A stretch of 64,000 nucleotides of DNA from positions 248,001 to 312,000 of the forward strand of contig JACQFZ010000022.1 of the NCBI GenBank assembly GCA_016199745.1, in the 5' to 3' direction. The stretch comes from Gammaproteobacteria bacterium. Its GTDB lineage: Bacteria > Pseudomonadota > Gammaproteobacteria > Acidiferrobacterales > Sulfurifustaceae. Position 1 is the stretch's first letter. The number at the start of each line of letters is the position of its first letter. Both the position numbers and the translations under genes were made by a program. The notes below the pieces were generated by a model, which was not told the origin of the DNA, ran no database searches, and saw nothing but the letters and a program-made list of their open reading frames with translations. Below, one piece after another: positions 36,256 through 53,335 of this stretch.

Positions 36256-36364
36256 GCCGAACCGAATCTGCTCGGTGCCGTTGTTGCGATTAATCGCGCG
36301 GCGATGCTCCGGAAGAACAGGTCATAACGAAATGAATCGCAACGATCAGCAGGGCGAGTTGGTA

Positions 36365-38515
36365 ATGGGAAAAGTGCTCACGGTAGTCGACGCGATCGAT
36401 CAGTGGGTCGAACGCGCACCCGACAAAATCGCATTTCGCTTTCTCAAAGAAGACGGTTTGTACGACGTCGTCAGTTACGCCGAGCTGCACCGTTGGGCGC
36501 GCGTAATCGGTAGTGCTTTGCGACGCGAGTACGCCGCCGGATCGCGGGCGATTCTGTTGTTCCCGCCGGGACTTGATTTCGTCGCGGCGTTTCTCGGTTG
36601 TCTTTACGCCGGCATCGTTGCGGTTCCGGTTTGCTCACCGAGGTTGAACCGTCCGTCTACACCGTTGACGGCGATCATTCGCAATTGTCGGCCGCAGCTA
36701 TCGCTGACCACCGCCGACTACGCCAAAAGGCGTAGCAAAATTTTTAGCCAAATTCCGGAACTGTTGTCGTTGTCGTGGATGTCGACGGAAGTTCACCGCG
36801 GTGCACCGATCACCGGTGGCGCAGTGACCAGCGCCGAATCGGCGCTCGCGTTACTGCAGTACACGTCGGGTTCCACCGGCGTCGCCAAGGGTGTGATGGT
36901 GACGCGTGCGAACCTCGCGCATAACTCGTGGCTGATTCAAACGGCGTTCGGAACAAGCCCAGAGACGCGCGGTGTGTTCTGGTTGCCGCACTACCACGAT
37001 ATGGGATTAATCGGCGGAATCCTCGGCACGCTCTATTCCGGCGGCAGTAGCGTGCTGATGTCGCCGTTGGCGCTGATTCGCCGACCGTTGTCCTGGCTCG
37101 AGATGATTAGTAAAACGCAAGCCACGATTACCGGTGGACCGGATTTTAGTTACGCGTTGTGTACCGAAAAAGTATCGCCGGCGCAGCGCGAACACCTCGA
37201 CTTAAGTTCGTTGGAAGTTGCTTTTAGTGGCGCCGAACCGGTGCGACTCGAAACGATCGATAGGTTCAGCAAAACATTCGGCGCCTGCGGCTTTCAGCGC
37301 GAGGCGTTCGTTCCGTGTTACGGCCTGGCCGAAGCGACGTTGATGGTTTCGAGTCGACTACGATCGACGGCGATCGACTGGTTAGAGCTCGACGCCGTTG
37401 CACTCGAGCGTGACTTGGCGCTGGAGTCGAACGACAGTCAGAACCGCCGCCGTGTCGTAAGTTGCGGAACCCTGTTACCGCAGCAGCAGGTCAAGATCGT
37501 GGATCCGTCGTCGGGCCGCCAGTGTGCCGACGATCAAATCGGTGAAATTTGGGTGTGTGGGCCGAGCGTTGCTCGTGGCTATTGGGACAATGTCGACGCG
37601 ACCCGCGCAACTTTCCATGAGCAACGTGACAATACCGGCGCTATGCCGCGAACTTATTTGCGTACCGGCGATCTCGGCTTCGTCCATAACGGCGAGTTGT
37701 ATGTCACCGGCCGTATCAAAGATCTCATCATTGTGCGCGGTCGCAATCTCTATCCGCAGGATATTGAATGGACCGCGCAGTGCAGCAGCGCGTCGCTAAA
37801 GGGTGCAATCGCCGCCGCATTTTCGCTCGAAGTCGACGGGCGCGAAGAGTTGGCAATCGTGCTGGAGCTCGAGCGGCGCATGCGCGGCGAGGAGTACGAA
37901 CCGTTGATTCAGGCGGTGCGGCAGGCGGTTGGCGCCGAACATGAAGTCTCGGTGCACGCGGTAGTACTGGTGCGCGCGGGAATTATTCCGCGCACGTCGA
38001 GTGGCAAGTTGCGCCGCGGCGCCTGTCGCGAGGCCTATCTCGCCGGCGCTCTGGATGTGTTGCATGCATGGGTCGGCAACACCAGTGACGGCTGGTCGGA
38101 CGAACCGCGGGCGACTAACGACGCGACGTCGGCGAATGCGCCCGATGCCGTGGCGATTCGCTGCTGGCTAGTGACTAAGATCAGCGGGTTGACGTCGTTG
38201 CCCGAAGACCGCGTGAACGTTGCCGCGCCATTTGCCTCGTTCGGCCTCAGCTCACTGCAGGGCGTCATGTTGGTCGAGCAGTTGCAAACATTTGTTGGGC
38301 GCGAGATTCCGGCGACCTGGTTTTACAACTACCCGTCAATCGCCGAATTGACACATCGTCTTACCGGTGACGACGACACAGCGGTCGTTAAGACCACGGC
38401 GCGCGATGACACACGATTGTGGAATGAAGTCAGCGAACTTTCTGCTGCCGAGCTCGAGACATTAGTCGCCGAGCAAATGACAAACGAGTCTTACATAGTT
38501 ACCGAACGGAGATAG
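36365..38515 (+). CDS. Fatty acyl-AMP ligase fused to an ACP (loading protein)
   Basis: Loader of the assembly line, 716 aa. The ligase part begins KVLTVVDAIDQWVERAPDKI and has YTSGSTGVAKGVMVTRANLA, FWLPHYHDMGLIGGILGTLY, YGLAEATLMVS and YLRTGDLGFVHNGELYVTGR, all FAAL-type. The C-terminal ACP has Ser630 in FASFGLSSLQGVMLVEQLQT. The tail VSELSAAELETLVAEQM resembles the tails of the two PKS proteins and is probably a docking element for the next protein. I chose the ATG at 36365 (AGGGCGAG before it; family-like N-terminus). An ATG 11 codons upstream at 36332 lacks a ribosome site. The PKS starts three bases after its stop. Confidence 0.92.
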   Translation: MGKVLTVVDAIDQWVERAPDKIAFRFLKEDGLYDVVSYAELHRWARVIGSALRREYAAGSRAILLFPPGLDFVAAFLGCLYAGIVAVPVCSPRLNRPSTPLTAIIRNCRPQLSLTTADYAKRRSKIFSQIPELLSLSWMSTEVHRGAPITGGAVTSAESALALLQYTSGSTGVAKGVMVTRANLAHNSWLIQTAFGTSPETRGVFWLPHYHDMGLIGGILGTLYSGGSSVLMSPLALIRRPLSWLEMISKTQATITGGPDFSYALCTEKVSPAQREHLDLSSLEVAFSGAEPVRLETIDRFSKTFGACGFQREAFVPCYGLAEATLMVSSRLRSTAIDWLELDAVALERDLALESNDSQNRRRVVSCGTLLPQQQVKIVDPSSGRQCADDQIGEIWVCGPSVARGYWDNVDATRATFHEQRDNTGAMPRTYLRTGDLGFVHNGELYVTGRIKDLIIVRGRNLYPQDIEWTAQCSSASLKGAIAAAFSLEVDGREELAIVLELERRMRGEEYEPLIQAVRQAVGAEHEVSVHAVVLVRAGIIPRTSSGKLRRGACREAYLAGALDVLHAWVGNTSDGWSDEPRATNDATSANAPDAVAIRCWLVTKISGLTSLPEDRVNVAAPFASFGLSSLQGVMLVEQLQTFVGREIPATWFYNYPSIAELTHRLTGDDDTAVVKTTARDDTRLWNEVSELSAAELETLVAEQMTNESYIVTERR

Positions 38516-38517
38516 TT

Positions 38518-41500
38518 ATGGATACGCCCAGCAACAATCTTGAGGCGCCGTTACGCAACGCTGTTTATCTGCTCAAGCGCTGCCAAGCACGAACGGAAGA
38601 GCTGGAGAACGCCGCCCACGAACCCATTGCTATCGTCGGTACGGCATTGCGTTTCCCCGGCGGCGCCGATACGCCAGCGGCGTTCTGGCGCAATCTGTGC
38701 GACGGTGTCGACGCGATTCGCGAGATACCGGCAGATCGTTGGGATGTCGATGCTTACTTCGACCCGCGGCCGCTGAGTCCAGGCAAGATGAATACCCGCT
38801 GGGGCGGATTTCTCGGCAACATCGACAAGTTCGATCCCGAATTCTTCGGCATCTCGCCGCGCGAAGCGACCCAGACCGATCCGCAGCAGCGCATGTTGCT
38901 GGAGGTTGCGTGGGAGGCATTAGAGAGCGCCGGATTGCCGCCGCCGCGGTTAGCGGGTACCAAAGGCGGCGTGTACGTTGGTGTCATCGGCAATGACTAC
39001 GCATTTCTACAGGCGCAAGCCGGTGTCGCGCTCGACGGATTCATGGGCACGGGTAACGCGCACTCGATCGCCGCGAACCGCTTGTCCTACGTGTTCGATC
39101 TGCGTGGGCCGAGCGTTGCACTCGACACCGCTTGTTCCAGCTCACTGGTTACGGTGCATCTCGCTTGTCAAAGTTTGCGCCGCGGTGAAATTGACTTCGC
39201 GGTTGCCGGCGGCGTCAACCTAATCATGCATCCGGAAATGACGATCGTGTTGTCGCAAGCACAGATGCTGTCGCCGGATGGACGCTGTAAGACCTTCGAC
39301 GCCGGCGCCAACGGCTATGTGCGCGGTGAAGGTTGCGGCGTTGTCGTTCTCAAGCGGTTGCGCGACGCGGAGGCCAACGGCGATCGCATCTTGGCGGTTA
39401 TTCGCGGCACCGCCGTTAATCAAGATGGACGCAGCAATGGAATATCCGCGCCCAACGGCCCGGCGCAGGAAGCGGTAATCCGCGCTGCACTCGCGGACGC
39501 GCGTGTGGCGCCGACCGACATCGGCTATGTCGAAACCCATGGTACCGGCACGTCGCTCGGTGATCCGATCGAGGTAGAAGCGTTACGCAACGTGCTCGGC
39601 GAGCGCCGCGACCCGGAGCGTCCGCTGGTTCTCGGTGCGGTGAAAACCAACATCGGTCATTTGGAAAGCGCCGCCGGCATTGTTGCGCTCATCAAGGCGA
39701 CATTGGCGCTGCACAACGAGGCGATTCCGCCCAATCTGCATTTGGCGACACCGAATCCGAAGCTGCCGCTCGGTAACGGCGTATTCAAGCTACCGGACGA
39801 ATTGTTGCCATGGCCACGCGGCGAACGTCCGCGTTTGGCCGGCGTAAGCTCCTTCGGCTTCGGCGGCACCAATGCGCACATCATTGTCGGTGAAGCACCG
39901 GCACCAACGCCGCCGCCGAGCGTGCCCGCGATCGAGCGCGCGCGGCACATTCTAACGTTGTCGGCGCGTAACGAACCGGCACTGAAAGAAATGGCCGGAC
40001 GTTATCTAACGCAGCTCGAATCGAATCCAGAATGCGTCGTCGCCGATCTCGCTTATAGCGCCAACACACTGCGGGCGCACTTCGGTGAGCGCGCGGCGAT
40101 AGTGATCAAAGCGGACGCGCCCGCGAGTCATGAGGTGTTGCGCCAAGGTCTCGAAGCGTTGCAGCAAGAGAACGCGCTGCCATTTGTCCGCAGCAGCCGG
40201 CAGAGCGAGGTGCGCAGCAAGGATGTCGTGTTCCTGTTCACCGGACAGGGATCGCAGTATGCGCAAATGGGTATGTCGCTGTACGACACCCAGCCGCTAT
40301 TCCGCGATGTGCTGCAACGTTGCGACCAGCTGCTGCAACAGCATGCCGGCTTTTCGTTGTTGTCGCTGCTGGGTGCTGCGGCGGACGTGAACGCCGATCT
40401 CCATCAAACGCAGTACACGCAACCGGCGTTGTTCGCGTTGGAGTATGCGTTGGCGCAGTTATGGATGAGTTGGGGCGTTCGGCCGACGGCGGTAATGGGA
40501 CACAGCGTCGGTGAATACGTGGCCGCGTGTGTCGCCGGGGTTTACAGCCTCGAAGACGGTATCCGACTCATCGCCGAGCGCGCTCGCTTGATGCAGGCGT
40601 TGCCGCACGACGGCCGCATGGTGGCGGTATCGACGACGCCGGAAAAATTAACCGAGTTGCTGGCGGCCTATCCGCAGCAGTTGGCGCTGGCGGCGGTCAA
40701 CGGTCCGCACAGTTGCGTGATTTCCGGTCACACCAGCGCCATCGACGCGGCCGTTGCCCAGTTGCAGGCGGACGGCGTAACGACGCAAGTATTGGCGACG
40801 TCGCATGCGTTCCATTCGCCACTGATGGAACCGATGTTGGATGAGTTCGAACGTTTCGTTGCCGCTATTCCGCTGGCCGCGCCGAGCGTGCCGTTGATTT
40901 CCAATCTGACCGGCGCGAGCGTAGAACCCAACGTGGTCACTACGGCTTCCTACTGGCGCCGTCATATTCGCGAAGCCGTGAAATTCAAGGACGGCATCGA
41001 CGGCTTGTGGCAACAAGGTCGGCGCATGTTCCTCGAAGTCGGTCCCAGTGCGACCTTGATCGGTTTGGGACGGCAATGCGTTGGTCGCGGCGAGAGTGGG
41101 ATATGGCTTTCGTCGCTACGCAAGGGACGCAATGAATGGGAAACGATTCTTGAAAGTCTGGCGGCAGTCTACACCGCGGGTGTCGATGTCGACTGGGCGG
41201 CGTTTGACGCGCCTTATGCGCGCCAGCGATTGGACACGCCGAGCTATCCGTTCCAGCGTCAACGTTTCTGGTCGGTGGAGCCGGGTGCGGGTACGACGCG
41301 CGCCGAGGTGACGCACCAAGCCAGCGCCACCGGCTACCCACTGCTTGGCAGCAAGTTACGGCTGGCACTGAACGGGCAAGAAATTTTCGAAGCGCGGCTT
41401 ACGCCTGACCAACCGGCAGTGCTGCGCGATCATGTCATCTACGGGCGTGTCGTCATGCCGGGTATGGCCTACCTCGAACAAGCGCTGGCGGCAGCAGCGA

Positions 41501-44500
41501 CGCTCAGCGACGGCGACTGGATGCTGGAAGACGTCAGTTTAGCTCGACCGCTGGTGTTGGATCCGAAGCGCCCGGTTACGGTGCAGACGATCGTAACGGC
41601 AGAGCGATTCGACAGTTATCAATTCAAAATTGTCAGCCTGGTCGAAGCCGACGAAACGCGGCCGGCTTACTTCGTTACGCACGCGTTCGGTCGCATTCGG
41701 CTCGATGCCGATGCGCACTCGGCGGCGCAAACCACGGTCGATTTGCAACAGCTACGCAATCGCTTCGACGGTACAGCCTATGACGATGAATGGCGCCGTG
41801 CGATCTTGCGCAAGTCGGGCATGCAGATGGGCCCTGGCTTCACGTGGATGACTGAGCATTGGTACAGCGGCGACAACGAAAGTATCGGCCATATGCGTCC
41901 GGCGCGGGCGGCGGACAACGTCGCTGGCTTCGTGTTCCATCCCGGCGCGATGGACTGCGGCATACAGCTCGCGGGGTCGATGCTGCCCGGCGCCGGCATA
42001 GACGCCATCGTCCCGGTAGCGATAAAGCGCGTGCGCGTGTTGAAAAAGTTCGAAGCCGATGCGTGGTATCACAGTTCCATCACCGCTAAAAACGGTTCGA
42101 CCGCGGAAGCGGAGGTCAGGATGTACTCACCGGCCGGCGAGCCGCTCCTCGCGCTCGACGGTGTGAAGTTGCAGCGTGTCACCAGCGAATGGGTCAGGCG
42201 CGCGCTTGGTGAACGGCATCCGCAGTGGCTGTACAAACTTCAGTGGCAGACGGCGGCACTACCGCCACGCGAGCCCGCTTCAGCGGAAAGCGGCGGTTGG
42301 TTGGTGTTGGATGACGAGCGCGGTGTCGGTGCTGCGGTAGCCGGTCTTTTGCGTGCACACGGCGAGCATTGTGATGTGGTCGCCGCCGCCGAGACGTCTG
42401 ACGAGGTATGCGCACGAGTGCGGGCGGCGATCGACGCCGACACGGTCCCTTGTCGCGGTGTCATCCATTGTTCGAGCCTCGATGCCGGCCGTGCCGGGGA
42501 ATGCTTGCCGAAACACATCGCGCTGGCGCGCGAACGGGCATGGGGCCGTACGCTGGATGTTGTGCAAGCGTTGACCGACGACACGAGTGCGAAGCTACGA
42601 CTGTACTTAGTGACGCGTGCTGCGCAGACGCTGGACGGAAGCACCGCCGGCGTTGCGCTCGCGCAGTCGCCGTTGTGGGGTTTGGCACGTGTCATCGCTG
42701 CCGAGCATCCAGAGTTGAATTGCACGCGCATCGATCTCGACCCGAACGCATCGGTGGCGGACGACGCGCGCACGTTGGTACAGGAAATACTTGCCGCCGA
42801 TCGCGAGGACCAAATCCTTTACCGCGACGACGCCCGCTACGTGGCGCGTTTGACGGCGCTCGAGGACGGCGCCGGCTCGAGGCTCGAGGTACCGGACGGA
42901 CAGCCGTATCGTCTGGAGATCACCAGTCGCGGCGAGCTCGAACATGTGCAGCTGCGGCCGGTAGCGCGCCGCACGCCGGGCGCCGGAGAAGTTGAGATCG
43001 AAGTGAGAGCAACCGGGCTCAATTTCCGCGATGTGTTGAACGTGCTCGGTCTTTATCCCGGTAATCCCGGTCCGCTGGGCGGCGAGTGCGCCGGCGTGAT
43101 AACGGCGGTTGGCGACGGCGTGCAGAACTTGTCGGTCGGCGATTCGGTGTTCGGCTTAGTGCCGGCGAGCTTCGCTAGTCACGCGGTCACGTCCGCTCGG
43201 TTCGTCGCGCGTACGCCGCAATCGTTAAGCGATGCCGAAGCGGCAACATTGCCGATCGCGTTTTTGACCGCGCATCATGCGTTGCGTCGATTGGGCGAAA
43301 TATCGCCAGGCGATCGCGTGTTAATCCATGCCGCCTCGGGTGGCGTAGGTTTAGCAGCGGTGCAGATCGCACAACGCGCCGGTGCCGAGATTTTTGCGAC
43401 TGCCGGCAGCGACGAGAAGCGTCAGTTCTTGCGCGACCTCGGCATTACGCACGTGCTGGATTCGCGTTCGCTCGAGTTTGCCGATCAGGTGAAGGCGCTG
43501 ACGCAAGGACACGGCGTTAAGCTAGTGCTCAACTCGCTCACCGGCGAATCGATCGCCGGCAGTCTTTCGGTGATGGCCGATCATGGCCACTTCTTGGAAC
43601 TCGGCAAGACCGATCTTTGGAACCAGGAGCGCGTCGCGGCGGTCAATCCGACGCTGCGTTTCCACGCCATCGCGCTCGATAACATGATGGCGACCGTTCC
43701 GGAATACGTCGAAGCTTTGCTGCAGGAGTTGCTGCCGGAGATTGCCGACGCCCGCCTCAAGCCGTTACCGCTCAAGATTTATCCGATCCAGCAAACGGTC
43801 GCCGCCTTCCGTCACATGGCGCGCGCTAAACACATCGGCAAAGTGGTGGTTAGCTCTGCTAGCGCCGTCGATGCGCATGCATTGCGTGGTCCGATCCGCG
43901 AAGACGGCGCTTACCTCATTACCGGTGGTTTGGGCGGTCTAGGTCTGAAGTTCGCCAAATGGTTGGTGGACAAGGGTGCGCGCCACTTAGTACTGACGGG
44001 TCGTTCCGGCGCCAACGAGAACGCACTCGCGTCGATCGATGAGCTGCGATTGCTCGGTGCTGAGATCGACGTCGTCAAAGCGGACATCAGCCGCCGCGAT
44101 GATGTGCAACGTCTACTTGCTGCCATTAAGCCGCCGCTGCGCGGCGTGTTGCACGCCGCCGGCACGCTCGACGACGGCATCATTCGCGAGCAAACGCGCG
44201 AACGATTCGACACGGTCATGGCGTCGAAGGTATTGGGTGCATTACATCTGCACGAGCTCACGCGCGGTTCCACGCTCGATCTGTTCGTGCTGTTCTCTTC
44301 AGCGGCGTCGCTGCTGGGTTCACCGGGGCAAGCGAACTATGCCGCGGCCAATGCCTTTCTCGATGCGCTCGCGCATGAACGTCGTCGCCAAGGGTTGGCG
44401 GCGCTCAGCATTAATTGGGGCGCTTGGGCGGAAGTCGGTATGGCGGCGGAACTTGATCGCGCCAAAGGTAATCGACTCGAAGGTGCCGGCGTCGAACGTA

Positions 44501-45087
44501 TCGATCTCGAACGCGGACTCGAGACCTTCGGTCATCTGCTCGAATGTGACGAACCGCAGGTGGCGGTGTTGCCGCTCGATTGGGGCAAGTTACTGGGACG
44601 ACTGCCGCAGGGAATGGAGCCGCCGTGGTTACTGACGATTGCCGCGGCGACGCGCACGCAAAAGCAGGACGGCGCCAGACCGGATTTGAAAAAGCGCTTG
44701 GCGGAAATGGAAATGGGCGGGCAGGTCGATGTCGTGCTGGCGTTCGTGCGCGAACAAGCGGCGCTGGTAATGGGCAGCAGCGCCAATCTGCCGGATCCGC
44801 AGCGGCCGATCAATGAACTTGGTTTCGATTCGCTTATGGGTGTGGAGTTGTGTAATGCCTTGAGTAACGCCGTCGGCCGGCACTTACCGCCGACGATACT
44901 GTTCGATCATCCGACGCTCGAGAAGTTATCGCTGCATTTGGCCTACGAGGTATTGGGGCTGGCACCGCCGGAACCGACGCCGCCGAAGGCGACCGATCAC
45001 GCGGTAGATCGCGTGTTGGCCGACGTGAAAGAGATGTCCGAGCAAGAAATGGACGCGCTCGTCACCAAAGAACTGCAAGCGTCGTAA
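38518..45087 (+). CDS. Type I polyketide synthase, fully reducing module (KS-AT-DH-ER-KR-ACP)
   Basis: One extension module in 2189 aa. An N-terminal coiled segment (LLKRCQARTEELENAAHEPI) leads into KS with Cys206 in DTACSSSLVTVH and the histidines of VETHGTGTSLGDP and KTNIGHLESAAG. AT has Ser663 in GHSVGEYVAAC and HAFHSPLM, the malonyl-type signature. DH has His972 in HVIYGRVVMPGMAY (HxxxGxxxxP). ER shows GLNFRDVLNVLGLYPGN and HAASGGVGLAAVQIAQRAG. KR shows TGGLGGLGLKFAKWLVDKGA, and LDD in HAAGTLDDGII points to a B-type ketoreductase. ACP Ser2105 is in ELGFDSLMGVEL. The C-terminal EMSEQEMDALVTKEL is a likely docking tail. It should add one fully reduced two-carbon unit to the acyl chain. Confidence 0.95.
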   Translation: MDTPSNNLEAPLRNAVYLLKRCQARTEELENAAHEPIAIVGTALRFPGGADTPAAFWRNLCDGVDAIREIPADRWDVDAYFDPRPLSPGKMNTRWGGFLGNIDKFDPEFFGISPREATQTDPQQRMLLEVAWEALESAGLPPPRLAGTKGGVYVGVIGNDYAFLQAQAGVALDGFMGTGNAHSIAANRLSYVFDLRGPSVALDTACSSSLVTVHLACQSLRRGEIDFAVAGGVNLIMHPEMTIVLSQAQMLSPDGRCKTFDAGANGYVRGEGCGVVVLKRLRDAEANGDRILAVIRGTAVNQDGRSNGISAPNGPAQEAVIRAALADARVAPTDIGYVETHGTGTSLGDPIEVEALRNVLGERRDPERPLVLGAVKTNIGHLESAAGIVALIKATLALHNEAIPPNLHLATPNPKLPLGNGVFKLPDELLPWPRGERPRLAGVSSFGFGGTNAHIIVGEAPAPTPPPSVPAIERARHILTLSARNEPALKEMAGRYLTQLESNPECVVADLAYSANTLRAHFGERAAIVIKADAPASHEVLRQGLEALQQENALPFVRSSRQSEVRSKDVVFLFTGQGSQYAQMGMSLYDTQPLFRDVLQRCDQLLQQHAGFSLLSLLGAAADVNADLHQTQYTQPALFALEYALAQLWMSWGVRPTAVMGHSVGEYVAACVAGVYSLEDGIRLIAERARLMQALPHDGRMVAVSTTPEKLTELLAAYPQQLALAAVNGPHSCVISGHTSAIDAAVAQLQADGVTTQVLATSHAFHSPLMEPMLDEFERFVAAIPLAAPSVPLISNLTGASVEPNVVTTASYWRRHIREAVKFKDGIDGLWQQGRRMFLEVGPSATLIGLGRQCVGRGESGIWLSSLRKGRNEWETILESLAAVYTAGVDVDWAAFDAPYARQRLDTPSYPFQRQRFWSVEPGAGTTRAEVTHQASATGYPLLGSKLRLALNGQEIFEARLTPDQPAVLRDHVIYGRVVMPGMAYLEQALAAAATLSDGDWMLEDVSLARPLVLDPKRPVTVQTIVTAERFDSYQFKIVSLVEADETRPAYFVTHAFGRIRLDADAHSAAQTTVDLQQLRNRFDGTAYDDEWRRAILRKSGMQMGPGFTWMTEHWYSGDNESIGHMRPARAADNVAGFVFHPGAMDCGIQLAGSMLPGAGIDAIVPVAIKRVRVLKKFEADAWYHSSITAKNGSTAEAEVRMYSPAGEPLLALDGVKLQRVTSEWVRRALGERHPQWLYKLQWQTAALPPREPASAESGGWLVLDDERGVGAAVAGLLRAHGEHCDVVAAAETSDEVCARVRAAIDADTVPCRGVIHCSSLDAGRAGECLPKHIALARERAWGRTLDVVQALTDDTSAKLRLYLVTRAAQTLDGSTAGVALAQSPLWGLARVIAAEHPELNCTRIDLDPNASVADDARTLVQEILAADREDQILYRDDARYVARLTALEDGAGSRLEVPDGQPYRLEITSRGELEHVQLRPVARRTPGAGEVEIEVRATGLNFRDVLNVLGLYPGNPGPLGGECAGVITAVGDGVQNLSVGDSVFGLVPASFASHAVTSARFVARTPQSLSDAEAATLPIAFLTAHHALRRLGEISPGDRVLIHAASGGVGLAAVQIAQRAGAEIFATAGSDEKRQFLRDLGITHVLDSRSLEFADQVKALTQGHGVKLVLNSLTGESIAGSLSVMADHGHFLELGKTDLWNQERVAAVNPTLRFHAIALDNMMATVPEYVEALLQELLPEIADARLKPLPLKIYPIQQTVAAFRHMARAKHIGKVVVSSASAVDAHALRGPIREDGAYLITGGLGGLGLKFAKWLVDKGARHLVLTGRSGANENALASIDELRLLGAEIDVVKADISRRDDVQRLLAAIKPPLRGVLHAAGTLDDGIIREQTRERFDTVMASKVLGALHLHELTRGSTLDLFVLFSSAASLLGSPGQANYAAANAFLDALAHERRRQGLAALSINWGAWAEVGMAAELDRAKGNRLEGAGVERIDLERGLETFGHLLECDEPQVAVLPLDWGKLLGRLPQGMEPPWLLTIAAATRTQKQDGARPDLKKRLAEMEMGGQVDVVLAFVREQAALVMGSSANLPDPQRPINELGFDSLMGVELCNALSNAVGRHLPPTILFDHPTLEKLSLHLAYEVLGLAPPEPTPPKATDHAVDRVLADVKEMSEQEMDALVTKELQAS

Positions 45088-45122
45088 GTTAATTTTTTAT
45101 TATTCTTAATTATGGAGTGTTT

Positions 45123-48100
45123 ATGACGAAGCTTTCGGATCGCTTCAGTGGGTTAACCCCGTTGCAGCGCGCAGTGTTCGCGTTGAAGGAAAAAACCGCG
45201 CGCGTGGAGGCGCTGGAACGCGCCGCCAACGAGCCGATCGCCATCGTCGGTATCGCTTGCCGTTTTCCCGGCGGCGCCAATGATCCGGCATCGTATTGGA
45301 AGTTGCTGTGCGACAAACGCGAGGCCATCAGTAACGTGCCGGGCGATCGTTGGGATGCCGATGCCTTTTACGATCCCAATCCGCAGGCCCCTGGCAAGAT
45401 GAACACACGCCGCGGTGGCTTTCTCGAGCAGGTCGATCTGTTCGACAACGAGTTCTTCGGAGTTTCCGAACGCGAGGCTTGCAGCATCGATCCGCAACAG
45501 CGGTTGTTGCTGGAGCTCGCCTGGGAAGCGTTGGAAGACGCTGGCATTCCGCCGAGCTCGGTACGCGGTTCGGACGCCGGTGTGTTTATCGGTATCTGCG
45601 GTAGCGACTATGGCCTGCTGTTGTCGAGCGATCTGCGGATGGCCGATGCCTTTGTCGGTACCGGCAGCTCGCTCAGCATCGCCGCCAACCGTCTGTCGTT
45701 CGCTTTCGATCTGCATGGTCCGAGCATGGCGGTCGACACCGCTTGCTCATCGTCACTGGTCGCGACCCATCTCGCCTGCCGCAGTTTGCGCAGCGGTGAG
45801 TCGAGCGTTGCGCTGGTGGGCGGCGTCAATGTGATTTTGTCGCCGACCTACGGCGTTAATATTACCAAGGTCGGCTTCTCGTCGGCGGACGGTTGCGTGC
45901 GGGCGTTTGATGCTGCGGCCGCCGGCTTCGTGCGTGGCGAGGGCGCCGGCATCGTCGTGCTCAAAACATTGTCGAAGGCGCGCGCCGACGGCGATTCGAT
46001 CTACGCCGTGATTCGCGGCAGTGCCATCAACGAAGACGGTTTCAGCAACGGTTTGACCGCGCCCAACCGGCAGTCGCAAGAGGCGGTAATACGCGCCGCT
46101 TGCCGGCAGGCGCAGGTGGTGCCGAATGAAGTGCAATACGTCGAGTGTCACGGTACCGGTACACTGCTGGGCGACACGATCGAGGCGATGGCATTGTCGA
46201 ATGTCGTCGGCGTCGGCAGCGGTCGCAGTCAGCCGTGTCTGCTCAGCGCCGTCAAGACCAATCTCGGACACATGGAAGCCGCGGCCGGCATCGCCAGCTT
46301 GATCAAAGCAGCGCTGGCATTAAAGCATCGGCAGATACCACCGACGGTACACTACGAGAAGCCGAATCCGAATATTCCGTTCCCGAGTCTCGGCTTGCAG
46401 GTCGCAACCGAGCTTACGCCGTGGCCAGAGGCGGCGACGGCGGTCGCCGGCGTCAGTGCCTTCGGCTTCGGCGGTAGCAATGCGCATTTGATCTTGGCGG
46501 AAGCGGCGACGCCCGATGTCAATGATCAAACGCCGGCAGGTTTGCGCCAACCGATGTTGTGCTTGTCGGCGCGTAGCCCTGAGGCGCTAAAGACACTGGC
46601 GCAGACTTATCGCCATTTTCTGGCCGATGCTGCGGTCGAGCTCACCGACGTTTGTTATGCCGCTGGTGCAAAGCGCGATCATCACGATCAGCGGTTAGTC
46701 CTCATTCCTGCCACACGCGAGCAGACGATCAAGCAGCTCAACGCCTATATCGACGATCAATCGGCCGATGGGTTGCATCAGGGCGTCAAGCCCTATGGTC
46801 GGCGCCCACGCACAGTATTCGTTTTCGCCGATGATGCATCGGCATGGTCGGCATTCGCGCCGCGCTTTACCGCCGAGGTCAATGTGTTCGGCGGACGTCT
46901 GCGCGAGTGGGACCAACGATTGCAGGCATTGACAGCGTTTTCGCCGATGGCGGCGATTATGGCGGGTGCTACCGCCAAGCTCGCGCTCGGGCATGAAAAT
47001 AAATTGTTGTTCGCGCTGCAAGCGGCGCTTGCCGACACCCTGCGCGATATCGGCGTGGCCGTTGACACCGTCGTTGGTTTCGGTAAGGGCGACTTGGCCG
47101 CGGCTTATGTCGCACGGGCGTTAGAACCGGAACATGCCATTTCAATTGCCGCGTTTCGCGATGAGTCGAGCACGCCGACGGACGCCACCCGCGATCACAT
47201 GAGTAAGATTCGTAGTGCCAGTGCTGCCTTGCCGTTCATCTGTGCCAGTCGCGGCGAGGTGCGCAATGGTAGGGTGTTGGATGTGTCGTACTGGCAGCAA
47301 GGATCGTTGGGTGCATTGCCGGACATCGCCGCGGTATTGAAGGTATTGCGCGATGGTTTGCCAGACTGCCTGTTGGAGATCGGTCCGGCGTCGCTCGCCC
47401 GCCAGTTGCAACCGCAGTTTGCAGCACTCAACCCGCATGGTCGGGTCGTTGCCCTCGGTGCCGACGGCTCGGCAGTGTCGTTCGCGGAGACGATCGCCCA
47501 CTTATATGTATCCGGACATGCGCTGCAGTGGTCGCGGTTGCAGTCGGCGCCGCAACGGCGCGTATCGTTGCCGACCTATCCATGGCAGCGGCGGCGTTTC
47601 TGGATCAAGACCGCGCTGCCGCAACCACCGGTCGAGAATAGCACGGTAGCCGATGCCGTACCGACGCCGACAGCGGCCGAGATTGTGCCGTCGGCGGCGC
47701 CAGCCACAGTGGATGGCATACGCCCGCGGCCGAATTTGAGCGTGCCGTACGAGCCGCCGCGTACCGAACTTGAACATCTCGTTGTCGGTCGGTTGCAGGA
47801 CATTCTGAAGATCGACCGCATCGGCCTGTGTGACAACTTCTTTGAACTCGGCGGCGAGTCGCTGCAAGCGGCGACGCTGATCAATCAAATTCAGAAGCAG
47901 CTCGAAGAGACCATTCACATCCTCGCCATCTTTGAGGCGCAGACGGTCGCGGAATTGAGTGAGTACTTACGGCGACACTACCCGGCTGCGGTCAAGCGGT
48001 TGTGTCCGAGCGAGGTCGTCGGTGAAACCGAGTTCGTCGATCCCGATTGGCCGACGAGCATCACTGATGAGGAAGTGTCGAAGGCGCGGGCGTTGGTGGA

Positions 48101-49190
48101 GAGCTACATCGTGCGCGAAGAGGGCAAGATCTCGCCCAAGCGCAAGAAGAATCCACGAGCGATCTTCATTTTGTCGCCGCCGCGTTGTGGCACGACGTTA
48201 CTGCGGGTCATGTTGGCGGGCAACTCGAAATTATTCGCACCGCCGGAACTGGAGTTGTTGCCGTTCGATGATCTGGGTCAACGGCGCGAGGCCTATGCCG
48301 GGATGGCTGGCCTCTGGCTGGAAGGCACGACGCGGGCGTTGATGGAAGCGCTTGATTGCTCCAATGAGGAGGCGAGTACGGCGATGCGGAAATATGAGAC
48401 CGAGCGCATGTCGACCGCTGATCTATATCGATTGATGCAGGAGCCGATTGGCGATCGCATCTTGGTGGATAAGACGCCGAGCTATGCATCGCAAATCCAG
48501 ATTCTGCGGCGCGCCGAAATGATTTTCGATAAGCCGTTGTACGTACATCTGCTGCGCCACCCGTGCGGCATGATCCGGTCGTTCCTGGATTACAAGATGG
48601 ATCAGACCTATCGCGTGCGTTACAGCGTCAAGCAGAAATTTCCGTATTCGGCGCGGCAGATCGCCGAGCTGGTCTGGACCATTAGTCACCAGAACGTGCT
48701 GGATTTCCTATCGTCGATTCCGGCATCGCGGCACACACGCCTGTCGTTCGAGGATCTGGTGCGGCAGCCAGAACGGAGCATGCAGGCGCTGTCGGAGTTT
48801 TGCGAGATCCCCTACGACGAGGCGATGGCCGATCCGTACCGCGACATGCACAAGCGCATGGTCGATGCCACCGTCAGTGAGGGTCGCATGCAGGGCGATC
48901 AGAATTTTCTGGTTAAGCATAAGAAGATCGATCCAAGCGTTGCCGATCGCTGGGCGCGGGTGATGACGAGCGAATTTCTCGGTGCGCCCACCCGCGAACT
49001 GGCGCGTGAACTCGGTTATCCCGATGTCGACGGTTCACTGGCGCCGAATGTGCCGATGCCGTCGCTGGTTACCGAGACCGAGCTGCAGGCGGTCGACGGT
49101 GTACCGGACCTGTTACAGCAAATGAACGCGTTGTCGGACACCGAGGTCGATTCGTTGCTGGAGAAGATGTTAGTGGAGTACCAGCGGTGA
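45123..49190 (+). CDS. Type I PKS with degenerate AT and C-terminal sulfotransferase (KS-AT0-ACP-ST)
   Basis: 1355 aa. The N-terminal helix (RAVFALKEKTARVEALERAA) resembles that of the previous PKS. KS looks active: Cys208 in DTACSSSLVATH, VECHGTGTLLGDT and KTNLGHMEAAAG. The AT-sized region after it has lost its motifs. FVFADDASAWSAF stands where FLFTGQGSQ belongs, GFGKG (652-656) replaces GHSxG so that the nucleophile position is Gly654, and no HAFH is seen. The carrier has Ser913 in NFFELGGESLQAAT. A PAPS-dependent sulfotransferase follows: 5'-phosphosulfate loop FILSPPRCGTTLLRVML (from about residue 1015), then LVDKTPSYASQI and HLLRHPCGMIRSFLDY. The tail NALSDTEVDSLLEKML is a docking-like helix. 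Its stop overlaps the NRPS start. Confidence 0.92.
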   Translation: MTKLSDRFSGLTPLQRAVFALKEKTARVEALERAANEPIAIVGIACRFPGGANDPASYWKLLCDKREAISNVPGDRWDADAFYDPNPQAPGKMNTRRGGFLEQVDLFDNEFFGVSEREACSIDPQQRLLLELAWEALEDAGIPPSSVRGSDAGVFIGICGSDYGLLLSSDLRMADAFVGTGSSLSIAANRLSFAFDLHGPSMAVDTACSSSLVATHLACRSLRSGESSVALVGGVNVILSPTYGVNITKVGFSSADGCVRAFDAAAAGFVRGEGAGIVVLKTLSKARADGDSIYAVIRGSAINEDGFSNGLTAPNRQSQEAVIRAACRQAQVVPNEVQYVECHGTGTLLGDTIEAMALSNVVGVGSGRSQPCLLSAVKTNLGHMEAAAGIASLIKAALALKHRQIPPTVHYEKPNPNIPFPSLGLQVATELTPWPEAATAVAGVSAFGFGGSNAHLILAEAATPDVNDQTPAGLRQPMLCLSARSPEALKTLAQTYRHFLADAAVELTDVCYAAGAKRDHHDQRLVLIPATREQTIKQLNAYIDDQSADGLHQGVKPYGRRPRTVFVFADDASAWSAFAPRFTAEVNVFGGRLREWDQRLQALTAFSPMAAIMAGATAKLALGHENKLLFALQAALADTLRDIGVAVDTVVGFGKGDLAAAYVARALEPEHAISIAAFRDESSTPTDATRDHMSKIRSASAALPFICASRGEVRNGRVLDVSYWQQGSLGALPDIAAVLKVLRDGLPDCLLEIGPASLARQLQPQFAALNPHGRVVALGADGSAVSFAETIAHLYVSGHALQWSRLQSAPQRRVSLPTYPWQRRRFWIKTALPQPPVENSTVADAVPTPTAAEIVPSAAPATVDGIRPRPNLSVPYEPPRTELEHLVVGRLQDILKIDRIGLCDNFFELGGESLQAATLINQIQKQLEETIHILAIFEAQTVAELSEYLRRHYPAAVKRLCPSEVVGETEFVDPDWPTSITDEEVSKARALVESYIVREEGKISPKRKKNPRAIFILSPPRCGTTLLRVMLAGNSKLFAPPELELLPFDDLGQRREAYAGMAGLWLEGTTRALMEALDCSNEEASTAMRKYETERMSTADLYRLMQEPIGDRILVDKTPSYASQIQILRRAEMIFDKPLYVHLLRHPCGMIRSFLDYKMDQTYRVRYSVKQKFPYSARQIAELVWTISHQNVLDFLSSIPASRHTRLSFEDLVRQPERSMQALSEFCEIPYDEAMADPYRDMHKRMVDATVSEGRMQGDQNFLVKHKKIDPSVADRWARVMTSEFLGAPTRELARELGYPDVDGSLAPNVPMPSLVTETELQAVDGVPDLLQQMNALSDTEVDSLLEKMLVEYQR

Positions 49191-52100
49191 GTGATCTGGC
49201 GAGTGAGATGCAGCAGTTGTCCGCGCAGGAGAAGCGCAAGTTGCTCGCGCAACTGCTGCAGCAGCGCGCGCGGGTTAAACCGACACACTATCCGTTGTCG
49301 CTGGTCCAGGAGCCGCTGTGGTTTATCGACAGAATGTTGCAGGGCCGCCCGGTCTATCACCAACATGGTGGTTTTCGCATCGTCGGCCAGTTGGATATCA
49401 GTGCGTTCGAACGTGCGTTCGATGAAATCGTCCAGCGTCACGAAGTGATGCGTACCGTCCTGCCAGCGGTAGACGGCCAACCCGTGCAACAAGTGTTGTC
49501 CGATATGCGATTTCAGTTACCGCTGGAGGATCTTTCGGCGTTGACGCCGGACGAGCGCGAGAGTCAGATCAAGACGCTATGCGCTCGTGAGGCCCACGTT
49601 CCGATCGACTTGGAAACAGGACCGCTATGGCGTGCGCGATTATTTCGCCTTGCCGACGATGAATACCTGATTTATCTCAAAATTCACCACATTATTTCCG
49701 ACGGTTGGTCGATCAATGTGGTGATGCAAGAGCTGCTCGCGCTATACCAAAATTTTTCCCAGGACTTGCCGTCGCCGCTGGCGCCGCTGACCCTACAGTA
49801 TCGGGACTATGCCGTTTGGCAACGACAGCGGCTGCAAGGCGCGCGTCTGGAAGAATTGTTGTCGTATTGGCGGCGCAAGCTGGCGCCGCCAATAGCGGCG
49901 ATAGAGTTGCCGCTCAAGGGTCCGCGTCCGGCGATGCAGACGCATCGCGGCGCACATCGACGCATTCATCTGCCGCTCGAGTTGATCGATCGCGCGCGGA
50001 CGTTGGCTCGCACGGAACGGTCGACGTTGTTCATGTTATTGCTGGCGGTATTCAAGCTACTGCTGTCACGTTATTCGTCGCAGAACGACATCGTCGTCGG
50101 TGCGCCGGTGGCCAACCGGTCGCGGCCGGAGTTCGAGCCGCTGGTGGGTTATTTCGCCAGCATGACCGTGTTGCGTACCGATCTTAATGGCGAGCCGACG
50201 TTTCGCCAGTTGTTGCAGCGCGTCCGGGAGACGGTAACGGACGCATTCAAATATCAAGAATTGCCGCTCGAGACGTTGGTCAAAGAGTTGCGGCCGGAAC
50301 GCGATCCCAGTCGGCATCCGCTGTTCCAAGTCATGTTCGTGCTGCAAGCGGGGCGCGGCAACCTGTCGCGTGAAGTACCCGGGGTTAAATTCACGCCGCT
50401 TAAATCCGGCACCGGTTCGTCTAAATTCGATTTGCAACTGGTAGGGGTCAGGCACGCCGATTATTTCAAATTGGCGTTGGGCTACAACTGCGATCTTCTG
50501 GAGAAGGAGGTCGCCGAGCGTATGCTCGATCACTATCAAACCGCGCTTGAGGCGGTTATCGCCGACCCCGACCTACCGATCTCGCGTGTGCCGTTGATGG
50601 GCGCAGACGAGATCCAACGGATATCGGCGCTCGGTTCAGGAGCGTCGTTGCCACTCGTCGAAAATGCGTGTGTGCATCGCCGGTTCGAGCAACAGGCAGC
50701 GGCGACACCCGACACGTTAGCGGTGGAATGCGCCGGCGTACGATTGACCTACGCCGAACTTAATGCACGAGCCAATGGTTTGGCGCGACGCTTGCGTGCA
50801 CTGGGTGTAGCGGCCGATGATCGGGTCGCCGTGTTGTTGGAACGTTCGCCGGCATTCATCGTATCCATCCTTGCCGTCCTCAAAGCGGGTGCCGCTTATG
50901 TGCCGCTCGATACGCAGACGCCGTCGGCACGTTTGCATGAGATCGTGTCGCAGTGTGGTGCACGGGTGCTTATCAGCAGCGTGGTATCGAACCGATTATT
51001 ACCGGTGTTACCGGCCGCCGTGGAGCGCATGGTCATCGAGCGACTCGACGATCTGCCTGCTGACGACGTAAATCTGGTGGCGATAACGCATGCGCACAAT
51101 CTGGCGTACGTCATCTACACCTCGGGTTCGACGGGTAAACCTAAGGGCGTGATGATTGAGCATCGCGCGCTGATGAACTACATCCAGGCGGTCACCGATG
51201 CGTATCAGCTGTGTCCGTCTGATCGCGTGCTGCAATTCGCCTCGCTCAGTTTCGATGCCCACATCGAGGAAATCTTCCCGACACTCTGCGTCGGTGCGGC
51301 GGTGGTGCTGCGTACCGATGCCATGCTCGATAGTTTTTCCGGATTTTCCGAGGCCTGTACCGCAGCTGGTATCACGGTATTGAGCTTGCCGACGGCTTAT
51401 TGGCATGAATGGGTAGCGACATTGACGGCGCACGAGCAGAGGGCACCGCTGCCGTTGCGGCTATTGGTGATCGGCGGCGAACGGGCATTGCCGGAACGGG
51501 TCGCGTCGTGGATCCAGCAGGTTGGTCATGGTGTGTGCCTGCTCAATACCTACGGGCCGACCGAGTCGACCGTAATTGCGACGTGTCACGAGGCGCGGGA
51601 TCCGACATGCGACGACCGGCTGATGCCGGTACCTATCGGTCGACCCATTGCTAACGTACGAGCACGGGTGCTGGACGCGTTCATGCAGTTGGTGCCGGTT
51701 GGCATCATTGGTGAGCTCTATCTGGGCGGCGAAGGCTTGGCGCGCGGTTACCTGGGAGATCCGGCGCTGACAGAGCAACGTTTTGTGCAGGATCCTTTCC
51801 AGAGGGATTCCCAGGTGCGGTTATACCGTACCGGTGACTTGGCGCGCTGGCGCCCGGATGGTGAGCTTGAGTTCATGGGCCGGGTCGACATGCAGGTGAA
51901 GTTGCGCGGATTCCGCGTCGAGCCAGAAGAGATCGAGGCAGTACTGAACGAACATCCCGGTGTCATCCAGGCGGCGGTGGTGACGTGCGTGGGCGCCGTT
52001 GGTTCACCGCGGTTGGTCGCTTGTGTTGTCGGCGGCACTGATGCGCCGTCGCCGTCCGAGCTCAGGGAATTTCTGAGTGAGCAGCTGCCGAAATTTATGG

Positions 52101-53335
52101 TTCCGTCGGCGTTCGTCACGGTATCTGAGTTACCGCTGACGGTGACGGGAAAGATCGATCGTAAGCTGTTAGCCAACGAGGTCGGGCGGCGAGCGGTCGA
52201 GCTGCAAACCGCGTACGAATCGCCGGTCACGGAGACGGAACGGCGCGTGGCCGATATTTTTGGCGAGACGCTGAACGTTCCAAGGGTCGGTCGGCGCGAT
52301 AATTTTTTCGATCTCGGCGGTCACTCGTTGCTGGCCGTGCGCTTAATGACACGGATTCGTGCGGAATTCTCGGTCGAATTGCCATTGGTAGCATTGTTTG
52401 CAAAACCGACGGTAGCGGAACTGGCGATAGCGATCGATGGCCGCCAATCGTCGCTCGAACCGGTCGACACCGGAACGTCGTCGGAGATGGTCCGTATCGT
52501 CGAGAAACTATTCGTCCCCGATTCGGACTCACCACTCGTCGAGTTGGCAGCCGCCGGTAACAGCGAGCGCCCGATGTTTCTGGTGCATGGATTGGGTGGG
52601 CATGTGGCGATTTACGCTGATCTTGCTCGCCGCTTAGGCGAACGTTTGCCGATCTATGGCCTGCAGGCGGCCGGTATTGACGGCAAGCGGGCCGCGCACG
52701 GTGATTTAACGGAGATGGCCTCTTACTATCTGGCGGCAATCCGCGAACGGCAGCCCCGAGGTCCATACCGCCTTGGTGGTTGGTCCATGGGTGGGATGTT
52801 GGTGCTCGAGATGGCGCAGCAGCTGCGCACCCAAGGGCAATCTGTTGAGTTGCTTGCGATGTTCGATACGCACTTACCGAAATCGCAGGAGCCGTCGGCG
52901 GTGCTCGACGATGACGCGGCGATCAAATGGATTGCCGCCCGCTTCGGTGTGCCGGCGCAGATGTTGTTGGCGTTGCCGAAGCGGATGCGCTGGCGGGCGG
53001 TGCTGCAACGTGCGCGCAAGACATTGATTTTACCGCCGGAAATCGGTGAGGAGCAGTTGGAGAATCTCGCGCGAATTTGTCAGCTGCATGTCCAGGCGCT
53101 TACCCGTTACCAGCCGCTGCCTTATGACGGTGAGGTGTTGCTGTTTCGTGCCCATAATCCGACCGCGAAGGCGTCAAGGCGCGCGCGCCGCCACTTTGAT
53201 ACGGCCGAGCGTTGGCAGTCACTTTTTACAAAGCTGACAGAACATCCGGTTCGCGGCAACCACTATGCCATCATGCGTGAGCCTAACATCGAAAATATTG
53301 AACACGCGTTGCTCGAGCGGCTGACCGATCGGTAA
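49187..53335 (+). CDS. Non-ribosomal peptide synthetase, terminal module (C-A-PCP-TE)
   Basis: Single module, 1382 aa, starting at GTG 49187 within the PKS stop. The C domain has HHIISDGWS (His167-Gly173). The A domain has YTSGSTGKPKGVMIEHRALM, NTYGPTESTVIAT, YRTGDLARWRPDG and the catalytic Lys in LTVTGKIDRKLL. Aligned by eye to GrsA, the ten pocket positions read D-A-E-S-V-G-T-V-I-K, close to the lysine code of bacitracin synthetase (DAESIGSVCK), so lysine or a similar basic residue is the best guess. PCP Ser1047 is in DNFFDLGGHSLLAV. TE has Ser1200 in GGWSMGGMLVLE. It would condense the polyketide acyl chain with the amino acid and release the product by hydrolysis or cyclisation. Confidence 0.94.
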   Translation: MSDLASEMQQLSAQEKRKLLAQLLQQRARVKPTHYPLSLVQEPLWFIDRMLQGRPVYHQHGGFRIVGQLDISAFERAFDEIVQRHEVMRTVLPAVDGQPVQQVLSDMRFQLPLEDLSALTPDERESQIKTLCAREAHVPIDLETGPLWRARLFRLADDEYLIYLKIHHIISDGWSINVVMQELLALYQNFSQDLPSPLAPLTLQYRDYAVWQRQRLQGARLEELLSYWRRKLAPPIAAIELPLKGPRPAMQTHRGAHRRIHLPLELIDRARTLARTERSTLFMLLLAVFKLLLSRYSSQNDIVVGAPVANRSRPEFEPLVGYFASMTVLRTDLNGEPTFRQLLQRVRETVTDAFKYQELPLETLVKELRPERDPSRHPLFQVMFVLQAGRGNLSREVPGVKFTPLKSGTGSSKFDLQLVGVRHADYFKLALGYNCDLLEKEVAERMLDHYQTALEAVIADPDLPISRVPLMGADEIQRISALGSGASLPLVENACVHRRFEQQAAATPDTLAVECAGVRLTYAELNARANGLARRLRALGVAADDRVAVLLERSPAFIVSILAVLKAGAAYVPLDTQTPSARLHEIVSQCGARVLISSVVSNRLLPVLPAAVERMVIERLDDLPADDVNLVAITHAHNLAYVIYTSGSTGKPKGVMIEHRALMNYIQAVTDAYQLCPSDRVLQFASLSFDAHIEEIFPTLCVGAAVVLRTDAMLDSFSGFSEACTAAGITVLSLPTAYWHEWVATLTAHEQRAPLPLRLLVIGGERALPERVASWIQQVGHGVCLLNTYGPTESTVIATCHEARDPTCDDRLMPVPIGRPIANVRARVLDAFMQLVPVGIIGELYLGGEGLARGYLGDPALTEQRFVQDPFQRDSQVRLYRTGDLARWRPDGELEFMGRVDMQVKLRGFRVEPEEIEAVLNEHPGVIQAAVVTCVGAVGSPRLVACVVGGTDAPSPSELREFLSEQLPKFMVPSAFVTVSELPLTVTGKIDRKLLANEVGRRAVELQTAYESPVTETERRVADIFGETLNVPRVGRRDNFFDLGGHSLLAVRLMTRIRAEFSVELPLVALFAKPTVAELAIAIDGRQSSLEPVDTGTSSEMVRIVEKLFVPDSDSPLVELAAAGNSERPMFLVHGLGGHVAIYADLARRLGERLPIYGLQAAGIDGKRAAHGDLTEMASYYLAAIRERQPRGPYRLGGWSMGGMLVLEMAQQLRTQGQSVELLAMFDTHLPKSQEPSAVLDDDAAIKWIAARFGVPAQMLLALPKRMRWRAVLQRARKTLILPPEIGEEQLENLARICQLHVQALTRYQPLPYDGEVLLFRAHNPTAKASRRARRHFDTAERWQSLFTKLTEHPVRGNHYAIMREPNIENIEHALLERLTDR

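Follow-up and report, generated by a model that had tools for sequence, protein, structure and literature searches.

Two acyl-activation operons that appear to encode a quorum-sensing-type gene set for a sulfated fatty-acid/amino-acid molecule in a member of the Sulfurifustaceae

The DNA analyzed here (the window) is a 64,000-nucleotide stretch, positions 248001-312000 of the 376-kb contig JACQFZ010000022.1, from the 4.26-Mb genome of a gammaproteobacterium of the Sulfurifustaceae (assembly GCA_016199745.1). It carries a hybrid polyketide synthase (PKS) and nonribosomal peptide synthetase (NRPS) assembly line beside a second acyl-activation system, and the locus appears to be a quorum-sensing-type gene set for an unusual sulfated fatty-acid/amino-acid molecule. 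The reading we favor, held with about even confidence, is that two operons under common control produce a single lipo-amino acid, which is modified and exported. Three things are combined here: a desaturase cassette of the polyyne type, a module for hand-over from PKS to NRPS that is present in multiple phyla, and a sulfotransferase (ST) placed mid-line rather than at release. While the individual parts are known, neither this combination nor a described cluster with the exact gene set was found in the open-licence literature.

The core of the line consists of four intact, adjacent, head-to-tail open reading frames (ORFs; 36236-38515, 38518-45087, 45117-49190, and 49187-53335). As a preliminary description of this DNA had claimed, they encode a fatty acyl-AMP ligase (FAAL) fused to an acyl carrier protein (ACP), termed FAAL2-ACP2; a reducing PKS (PKS1) with ketosynthase (KS), acyltransferase (AT), dehydratase (DH), enoylreductase (ER), ketoreductase (KR), and ACP domains; a KS-AT-carrier-ST protein (PKS2); and an NRPS with condensation (C), adenylation (A), peptidyl carrier protein (PCP), and thioesterase (TE) domains. 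Position 36365 is an in-frame ATG within the first ORF, downstream of a putative promoter. The Pfam matches range from E 4e-9, for the AT fragment of PKS2, to 2.5e-106, and comprise AMP-binding and carrier domains in FAAL2-ACP2, all six domains of PKS1 (KS, AT, DH, ER, KR, and carrier), KS, AT fragment, carrier, and Sulfotransfer_3 in PKS2, and Condensation, AMP-binding, carrier, and Thioesterase in the NRPS. In NCBIfam, the top match of FAAL2 is a giant NRPS/PKS model, followed by fatty acyl-AMP ligase models, all under their cut-offs. All PKS1 active-site motifs examined are present (AT GHSVGE, DH HxxxGxxxxP and DxxxQ, ER, and KR), and the AT is of the malonyl type (HAFH) and the KR of the B type (LDD). 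Genes for an ABC exporter, a PhyH-type oxygenase, and a membrane acyltransferase follow in the same direction, and then rimP, nusA, and infB. Upstream lies the second of the two separate acyl-activation systems that had been described, with a free ligase (FAAL1), a free carrier (ACP1), and two desaturase genes (DES1 and DES2) between them.

The call of a dead AT (AT0) in PKS2 is borne out by its sequence, in which GHSxGE reads GFGKGD and approximately 100 residues of the small subdomain are gone. The ST had also been correctly recognized, but the carrier, previously called an ACP, is of the NRPS type (LGGESL). Among 41 genomes (this one and 40 relatives), full-length PKS2 was found in its own genome only. 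A PCP-ST alignment was then scanned against 84,980 species, each represented by a single genome, giving 405 relatives, from which the best 80 loci, spanning more than ten phyla, were returned; these were picked by likeness to the PCP-ST query, so that the share of mid-line arrangements among them is biased upwards. In the nearest three of these 80 (50-52% over PCP-ST), one from Verrucomicrobiia and two from Planctomycetaceae, KS-AT0-PCP-ST is followed by an NRPS, and in two of them (L048 and L049) the module is preceded by FAAL-ACP and a KS-AT-DH-ER-KR-ACP protein, as in the window. The supposition that an ST at a PKS/NRPS junction has no parallel is thus not supported. L049 carries its PKS2 in two frames, the pieces of which were analyzed separately, L048 has an ABC exporter at 52% identity 3' of the line, and in the third locus (L047) a glycosyltransferase gene lies 5' of the module.

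Modules lacking the ST also occur (L137, on contig C468 of genome G406, and L142, in genome G568). In G568, the module is a separate protein followed by C-A-PCP-C-A-PCP-TE and ABC exporters, and the other ST-less example, a second locus in the genome of L047, encodes FAAL-ACP, a PKS of the same kind, and KS-AT0-PCP fused directly to C-A. In a tree of 40 KSs, the KS of PKS2 (KS2) and five KSs of related modules (KS0s) form one clade with support of 100/100, while the PKS1 KS groups with the relatives' counterparts only weakly (93/42). A profile of the AT0-PCP region (A2) matches the window at 4.8e-224, the window itself being one of its five rows. From these sequence comparisons, we read PKS2 as a PKS-to-NRPS hand-over module, or adaptor, to which the ST is an optional addition. 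True adaptors were found in 2 of 397 sampled genomes in the class of G407, G407 included, after G663, which has an ordinary KS-AT-DH-KR with HGTGT, was left out of the count, and in 1 of 398 sampled genomes in the phylum of the window, namely the window itself. The search for PKS2 homologs in viral contigs gave no pattern match; 1349 plasmid records match PKS2, but only two cover 80% or more of its length, both cyanobacterial and at 38% identity. To our knowledge, the KS0-AT0-PCP(-ST) operons of Planctomycetota and Verrucomicrobiota have no published name, and a planctomycete search of the open-licence literature returned no matches.

Non-elongation is well supported for the related modules, in all five of which the HGTGT His of the KS is replaced by Gln, a change that we take to mark a non-elongating KS. 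For PKS2 itself it is likely. The sequence of KS2 speaks against it, given that the HGTGT His is retained together with the active-site Cys and the NxGH His, so that KS2 could still extend; the non-working AT of a KS0 module is found in the window, but the lost His is not. PKS2 might then be a true extension module, in which malonate is supplied in trans by the PKS1 AT or FabD and KS2 condenses it to a beta-keto product, leaving the ST to use an enol or a hydroxyl elsewhere, or to be idle. Dead-AT modules served in trans are known (colibactin). We nevertheless regard extension as rather unlikely, considering that the five other members of the 100/100 clade carry the His-to-Gln change, that no separate AT gene was seen among the cluster ORFs scanned, and that the module has no KR to make the hydroxyl used by this ST family.

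Within the PDB, the ST matches only the STs of olefin synthase (OLS) and CurM (E 2.9e-58 for 4gox and 8.2e-56 for 4gbm), and it shares the invariant positions of the 3'-phosphoadenosine-5'-phosphosulfate (PAPS) site among 99 STs compared. An adenosine-5'-phosphosulfate (APS) kinase is present. The OLS and CurM enzymes are described as sulfating a beta-hydroxyacyl chain, from which the TE then drives the loss of both sulfate and CO2 (PMC3903477). In a tree of 41 of the 99 STs, the window ST and three other AT0-linked STs form a clade with 100/100 support, and the STs of three ST-TE lines (L043, L044, and L019) together with one ST of L070 form a separate group of four, also at 100/100. Because the AT0-linked clade lies apart from the ST-TE group, the window ST is, by its placement, not of the release type. 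This bears on whether the locus could be a terminal-alkene line of the OLS/CurM kind, for which the FAAL-ACP start and the structural family of the ST would speak. The KR-ACP-ST-TE order of such modules is not matched, however, as KS-AT0-PCP-ST is followed by C-A-PCP-TE rather than directly by a TE, no KR is present in the ST module, and the ST falls outside the ST-TE group. Both the order of the modules and the clade of the ST thus speak against a terminal olefin synthase, which was rejected and which we consider highly improbable.

Judging from the context of its relatives, the ST is a member of a broad family found mostly in mid-line positions. The 80 loci yielded 89 STs, which come from 79 of them (L073 gave no ST-containing frame). 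The carrier-ST unit is preceded by an A domain in 66 cases, the frame start in 16, AT0 in 3, KR in 2, FAAL in 1, and another ST in 1, and the ST is followed by a C domain in 62, the frame end in 17, TE in 5, KS in 3, and a carrier in 2; the frequent ST-C junction within these best 80 of 405 loci further removes the supposed uniqueness of the arrangement. Using the standard Thr and Ser codes, A domains directly 5' of carrier-ST were read as Ser/Thr in 26 of 53 cases, compared to 8 of 90 for the remaining A domains in these loci (p 1e-7). A domains aligned over at most 330 residues were not used, and 3 of 56 before an ST and 8 of 98 others were left out as unreadable. As the loci are not independent, the comparison was repeated after thinning at 55% identity, and the bias persisted (14/37 versus 7/69, p 0.0016). 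This preference of the upstream A domains for Ser/Thr points to a beta-hydroxyl on a carrier as the likely target of the family.

The fate of the sulfate is a separate matter. It could serve as a leaving group, with the beta-hydroxyl activated and eliminated to give an alpha,beta-unsaturated acyl chain before condensation and, in the NRPS relatives, dehydro-residues by mid-line dehydration. The relatives' position 3' of Ser/Thr modules and 5' of C domains would suit such a role, as would the example of the CurM/OLS STs, which activate a beta-hydroxyl so that the sulfate can be lost later (PMC3903477). On the other hand, no eliminating domain was seen by Pfam in the core proteins, and cyanopeptolins offer a precedent, by analogy, for retention: a glyceric acid loading domain is described together with an ST domain in Planktothrix cyanopeptolin synthetases (PMC2533009), and the glyceric acid can carry a sulfate (PMC6070996). 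We regard elimination as rather unlikely. More broadly, and tentatively, sulfation of carrier-bound beta-hydroxyls, on Ser/Thr modules and on reduced PKS chains, may be a general, unrecognized form of assembly-line tailoring in many phyla, possibly an activation for dehydration or ring closure. The window would hold a special form of it, acting on a non-elongating hand-over module that receives its chain from half a polyyne cassette, and the alkynyl lipo-amino acid produced would be either sulfated or dehydrated. The 80-locus set makes the role of mid-line STs directly testable with small PCP-ST didomains.

Several other arrangements were observed among the ST loci. A C-A(Thr)-PCP-ST-C-A-PCP-TE synthetase recurs in several phyla (L074, L075, L085, L096, L101, L103, L111, L034, and L037); L034 and L085 are cut at the first A domain, the second A domain has a Gly-like DILQ code in all seven that were read, and in L074, L075, L096, and L101 the synthetase lies 3' of a KS-KR protein. 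In three Saprospiraceae loci (L109, L120, and L124), A-carrier-ST is fused directly to KS-AT, and in L070, from Anaerolineae, three carrier-ST proteins in series precede a C-A-PCP-TE protein. In L053, from Nostoc, carrier-ST-C is preceded by an FkbM methyltransferase domain, and this locus (the sole one of its kind scanned with Pfam) may belong to the cyanopeptolin type. The carrier-ST-TE ends of PKS lines in L043 and L044 (genome G233) and L019 (G020) are from the class and order of the window, outside the cyanobacteria; a KR was recognized before carrier-ST in L043 and L044, and all three are candidate terminal-alkene lines.

The free ligase system was compared with three desaturase cassettes, and the best match for each of its genes was L145, from a Streptomyces plasmid, which runs FAAL, desaturase, desaturase, ACP, desaturase, alpha/beta hydrolase, rubredoxin, and P450. 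FAAL1, DES1, DES2, and ACP1 match the first four of these genes in order, at 44, 60, 57, and 49% identity. A free ligase and a free ACP are present, as the preliminary description had it, but judging from this synteny they are part of an alkyne/polyyne-type desaturase cassette and not a simple loading pair. The neighboring FAAL, fatty-acid desaturase, and ACP genes correspond to the jamABC arrangement, for which an alkyne product would be predicted. A survey lists seven genes common to bacterial polyyne clusters (PMC8406139), all of which L145 holds if, as we propose, its hydrolase is equated with the listed thioesterase. A search of the window at E<=0.01 found no counterpart to the remaining four genes of L145, from the third desaturase through the P450. 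A third polyyne-type desaturase, 57% identical to that of L145, stands alone on contig C38, and the 20 kb examined there contain no homolog of the hydrolase, the rubredoxin, or the P450; L152 likewise has no homolog of the L145 rubredoxin at E<=0.01. Of the two further desaturases expected in a polyyne cassette, one is in the window and a candidate for the other lies only on another contig. Given that polyynes are reported to be abolished upon loss of any one of three desaturases (PMC8406139), the operon 1 product may be a polyyne, an alkyne, or contain alkenes only. Among sampled genomes of the class, this genome was the only one with DES1-like genes at E<=1e-70 (1 of 369) and also the only one with genes like the third desaturase at E<=1e-60 (1 of 143). 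In a separate cluster on a Polaromonas plasmid (L146), the order is FAAL, desaturase, ACP, a cyclopropane-synthase-like gene, a second desaturase, and KS, with insertion-sequence genes inside and beside the cluster.

The sequences upstream of the two operons suggest shared control. A search for repeats gave 20 families of direct repeats, of which many are no doubt due to chance. It included CCTGTTCGAAGATACAGGTT at 31204 and CCTGTTCGAAGAGACAGGTT at 36210, ACCTG-N10-CAGGT palindromes with 1 and 0 mismatches, respectively, which lie 147 bases upstream of the FAAL1 frame and 136 bases upstream of the FAAL2 ATG. Lux boxes have this kind of form. At an identical 18-nt spacing past both boxes is a shared -10-like element, TTGCAGAATG (GCAGAATG), and apart from box and element no similarity was found between the upstream regions within 200 bases. 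The full 20-bp box, allowing up to three mismatches, matches only twice in the 64 kb, and two matches were found in 0 of 100 shuffles, although the pattern was derived from the two copies themselves and this test is thus after the fact. A gene for a LuxR-type regulator and the palindrome at both operon starts together correspond to a lux regulon, with binding predicted. A LuxI remnant 5' of luxR (contig positions 277400-277615; PF00765, E 2.8e-7) contains one TGA and one TAG, and an intact LuxI on contig C52 has an exact ACCTG-N10-CAGGT close to its start. Scans for sigma-70 promoters and terminators found 2 and 13 sites, compared with 3.5 and 11.3 in shuffled sequence. Because the same palindrome and -10-like element begin both operons, the two ligase systems probably form one regulon.

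Even so, the operons may share a regulator alone and make two products, an alkynyl or polyunsaturated lipid of operon 1's own and a separate lipo-amino acid from operon 2. L048 and L049 have operon 2 without adjacent desaturases within the stretches fetched, and the truncated PGA_cap gene between the operons is placed as at a recombination junction. Conversely, the boxes and -10-like elements are near-identical, and operon 1 has no evident release step, since the window lacks the remaining cassette homologs and the nearest match to the L145 hydrolase in the whole genome is at 28% identity. We therefore consider separate products doubtful, and the lack of a close hydrolase match fits transfer to the PKS rather than release. 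ACP1 may load PKS1 directly, the ACP1 and FAAL2 chains may be joined in one product through the acyltransferase, or they may end in separate products.

On our favored reading of one lipo-amino acid from both operons, FAAL1 would activate a fatty acid and load it onto ACP1, where DES1 and DES2 would desaturate it, possibly with the C38 desaturase taking part, to give what is probably an alkyne- or enyne-type chain. As the releasing hydrolase of the cassette is missing, we infer that this chain would pass directly from ACP1 to PKS1. FAAL2-ACP2 and PKS1 would load an acyl chain, extend it with malonate, and reduce it; the KS of PKS2 would receive the PKS1 chain and, the AT being dead, pass it to the NRPS-type carrier. 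There, the ST would use PAPS to sulfate the bound chain at one of its hydroxyls, most likely the beta-hydroxyl of a last PKS1 cycle halted at the ketoreduced stage. The NRPS would add one amino acid, presumably basic and Lys-like, and its TE would release the product, with the PhyH enzyme and acyltransferase decorating it and the ABC transporter exporting it. Terminal-alkyne or polyunsaturated lipopeptides would represent chemistry detectable by click reagents.

Beyond the retained His of KS2, a number of observations count against this scheme. With respect to the hydroxyl, PKS1 was inspected for a decayed DH or ER as the source of a surviving beta-hydroxyl and none was found, both domains appearing competent; alternatively, the PhyH enzyme might supply the hydroxyl. 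With respect to the ST, the window alone has Cys in the PAPS loop PPRSGTT, where 96 of 99 STs have Ser, and the His of DGxH, present in 40 of 69 A-linked STs and in OLS and CurM, is replaced in the AT0-linked STs (V, V, T, and V), so that the chemistry of the window ST may differ; furthermore, 27 of the 53 A domains before an ST have no Ser/Thr reading. As for regulation, bare ACCTG-N10-CAGGT with one mismatch allowed matched at least twice in 14 of 100 shuffles, and the weight therefore rests on the shared core and the positions of the boxes; no lux box was found at the unlinked third desaturase on C38. Finally, no PhyH or desaturase homolog was detected by BLAST within the fetched stretches of L048 and L049.

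The A domain of the NRPS has the code DAESVGTVI, which resembles the Lys code of BacB, and from which we infer the basic amino acid. Similar codes among the nearest A domains of the set are DAESIGTVV and DAEDIGTVV, which were not named in the open-licence literature searched, where none of six code strings was found. The nearest NCBIfam model for the PhyH gene is a chlorinating enzyme, below cut-off, and its nearest solved structure is SyrB2 (E 4e-4), an enzyme that acts on carrier-bound amino acids. Halogenases have HxA/G in place of HxD, and given that HxD is kept, a halogenase was rejected. The coordinates of all features are collected in the table. The PGA_cap remnant between the operons resembles a recombination scar. 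Elsewhere in the genome, at least four further loci (L021-L024, on contigs C43, C35, C4, and C50) encode multidomain or long KS proteins, one of which begins FAAL-ACP-KS-AT-DH-KR.

Table. Features of the two operons and their surroundings (window coordinates)
Feature	Position	Strand	Basis
LuxI (Autoind_synth) remnant, in-frame stops	29400..29615	+	PF00765
LuxR-type regulator (Autoind_bind + GerE)	30161..30997	+	Pfam
Lux-box-like palindrome 5' of FAAL1 operon, 1 mismatch to ACCTG-N10-CAGGT	31203..31222	+	Repeat/pattern search
-10-like element TTGCAGAATG, 18 nt past FAAL1-operon box	31241..31250	+	Comparison of both upstream regions
FAAL1, free fatty acyl-AMP ligase	31370..33202	+	Pfam/NCBIfam; 44% to L145 ligase
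DES1 desaturase, three His boxes, likely start 33189	33138..34130	+	PF00487; 60% to L145 desaturase a
DES2 desaturase	34199..35185	+	PF00487; 57% to L145 desaturase b
ACP1, free carrier protein	35189..35506	+	PF00550; 49% to L145 ACP
Truncated PGA_cap (CapA-like) gene	35496-36050	-	Profile positions 2-131 of 255
Lux-box-like palindrome 5' of FAAL2 operon, exact ACCTG-N10-CAGGT	36209..36228	+	Repeat/pattern search
-10-like element TTGCAGAATG, 18 nt past FAAL2-operon box	36247..36256	+	Comparison of both upstream regions
FAAL2-ACP2 didomain	36365..38515	+	Pfam/NCBIfam
PKS1, KS-AT-DH-ER-KR-ACP	38518..45087	+	Pfam, motif inspection
PKS2 KS, member of KS0 adaptor clade; Cys and both His present	45231..46535	+	Pfam, alignment, tree
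PKS2 AT0, catalytic motif lost, small subdomain deleted	46815..47696	+	Pfam, alignment, profile
PKS2 NRPS-type carrier (LGGESL)	47781..47969	+	Pfam, motif
PKS2 sulfotransferase domain, CurM/OLS family	48069..49046	+	Pfam, PDB sequence match, tree
NRPS C-A-PCP-TE, A code DAESVGTVI(K)	49187..53335	+	Pfam, code reading
ABC exporter, cyclic peptide type	53359..55023	+	TIGR01194, over cut-off
PhyH/SyrB2-like Fe(II)/2-oxoglutarate oxygenase with HxD...H...R	55065..55829	+	Pfam/NCBIfam, motif, structure match
Membrane acyltransferase (Acyl_transf_3), real start probably 55963	55735..57036	+	Pfam

In comparison with known systems, the FAAL, desaturase, desaturase, ACP order of operon 1 is that of the jamABC and polyyne cassettes (caryoynencin, protegencin, cepacin, collimonin, and ergoynes; PMC8406139), whereas here the third desaturase is unlinked, hydrolase and rubredoxin homologs are absent from the window, and a PKS-NRPS follows. 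A jamaicamide-type FAAL/desaturase/ACP start likewise has a desaturated fatty acyl-ACP feeding a PKS-NRPS (PMC11837247); neither a second FAAL-ACP nor an ST hand-over module is mentioned in the part of that source drawn on here. The ST is like that of the Planktothrix oci synthetase for cyanopeptolin in being a domain for tailoring and not release, but there a glyceric acid loading domain is present (PMC2533009), while here KS-AT0-PCP precedes the ST in a line with FAAL and PKS. With OLS and CurM (4gox and 4gbm), the locus shares the ST sequence family, the PAPS motifs, and the FAAL-ACP starter, and it differs in the mid-line position and clade of the ST and in lacking a KR in the ST module and a TE behind the ST. 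The Planctomycetota and Verrucomicrobiota operons (L047-L049, L136/L137, and L142/L143) are alike in module composition and, in four of five, in gene order; in contrast with the window, their KS has Gln in place of His, their NRPSs contain at least two condensation domains, and no desaturase cassette was seen in them.

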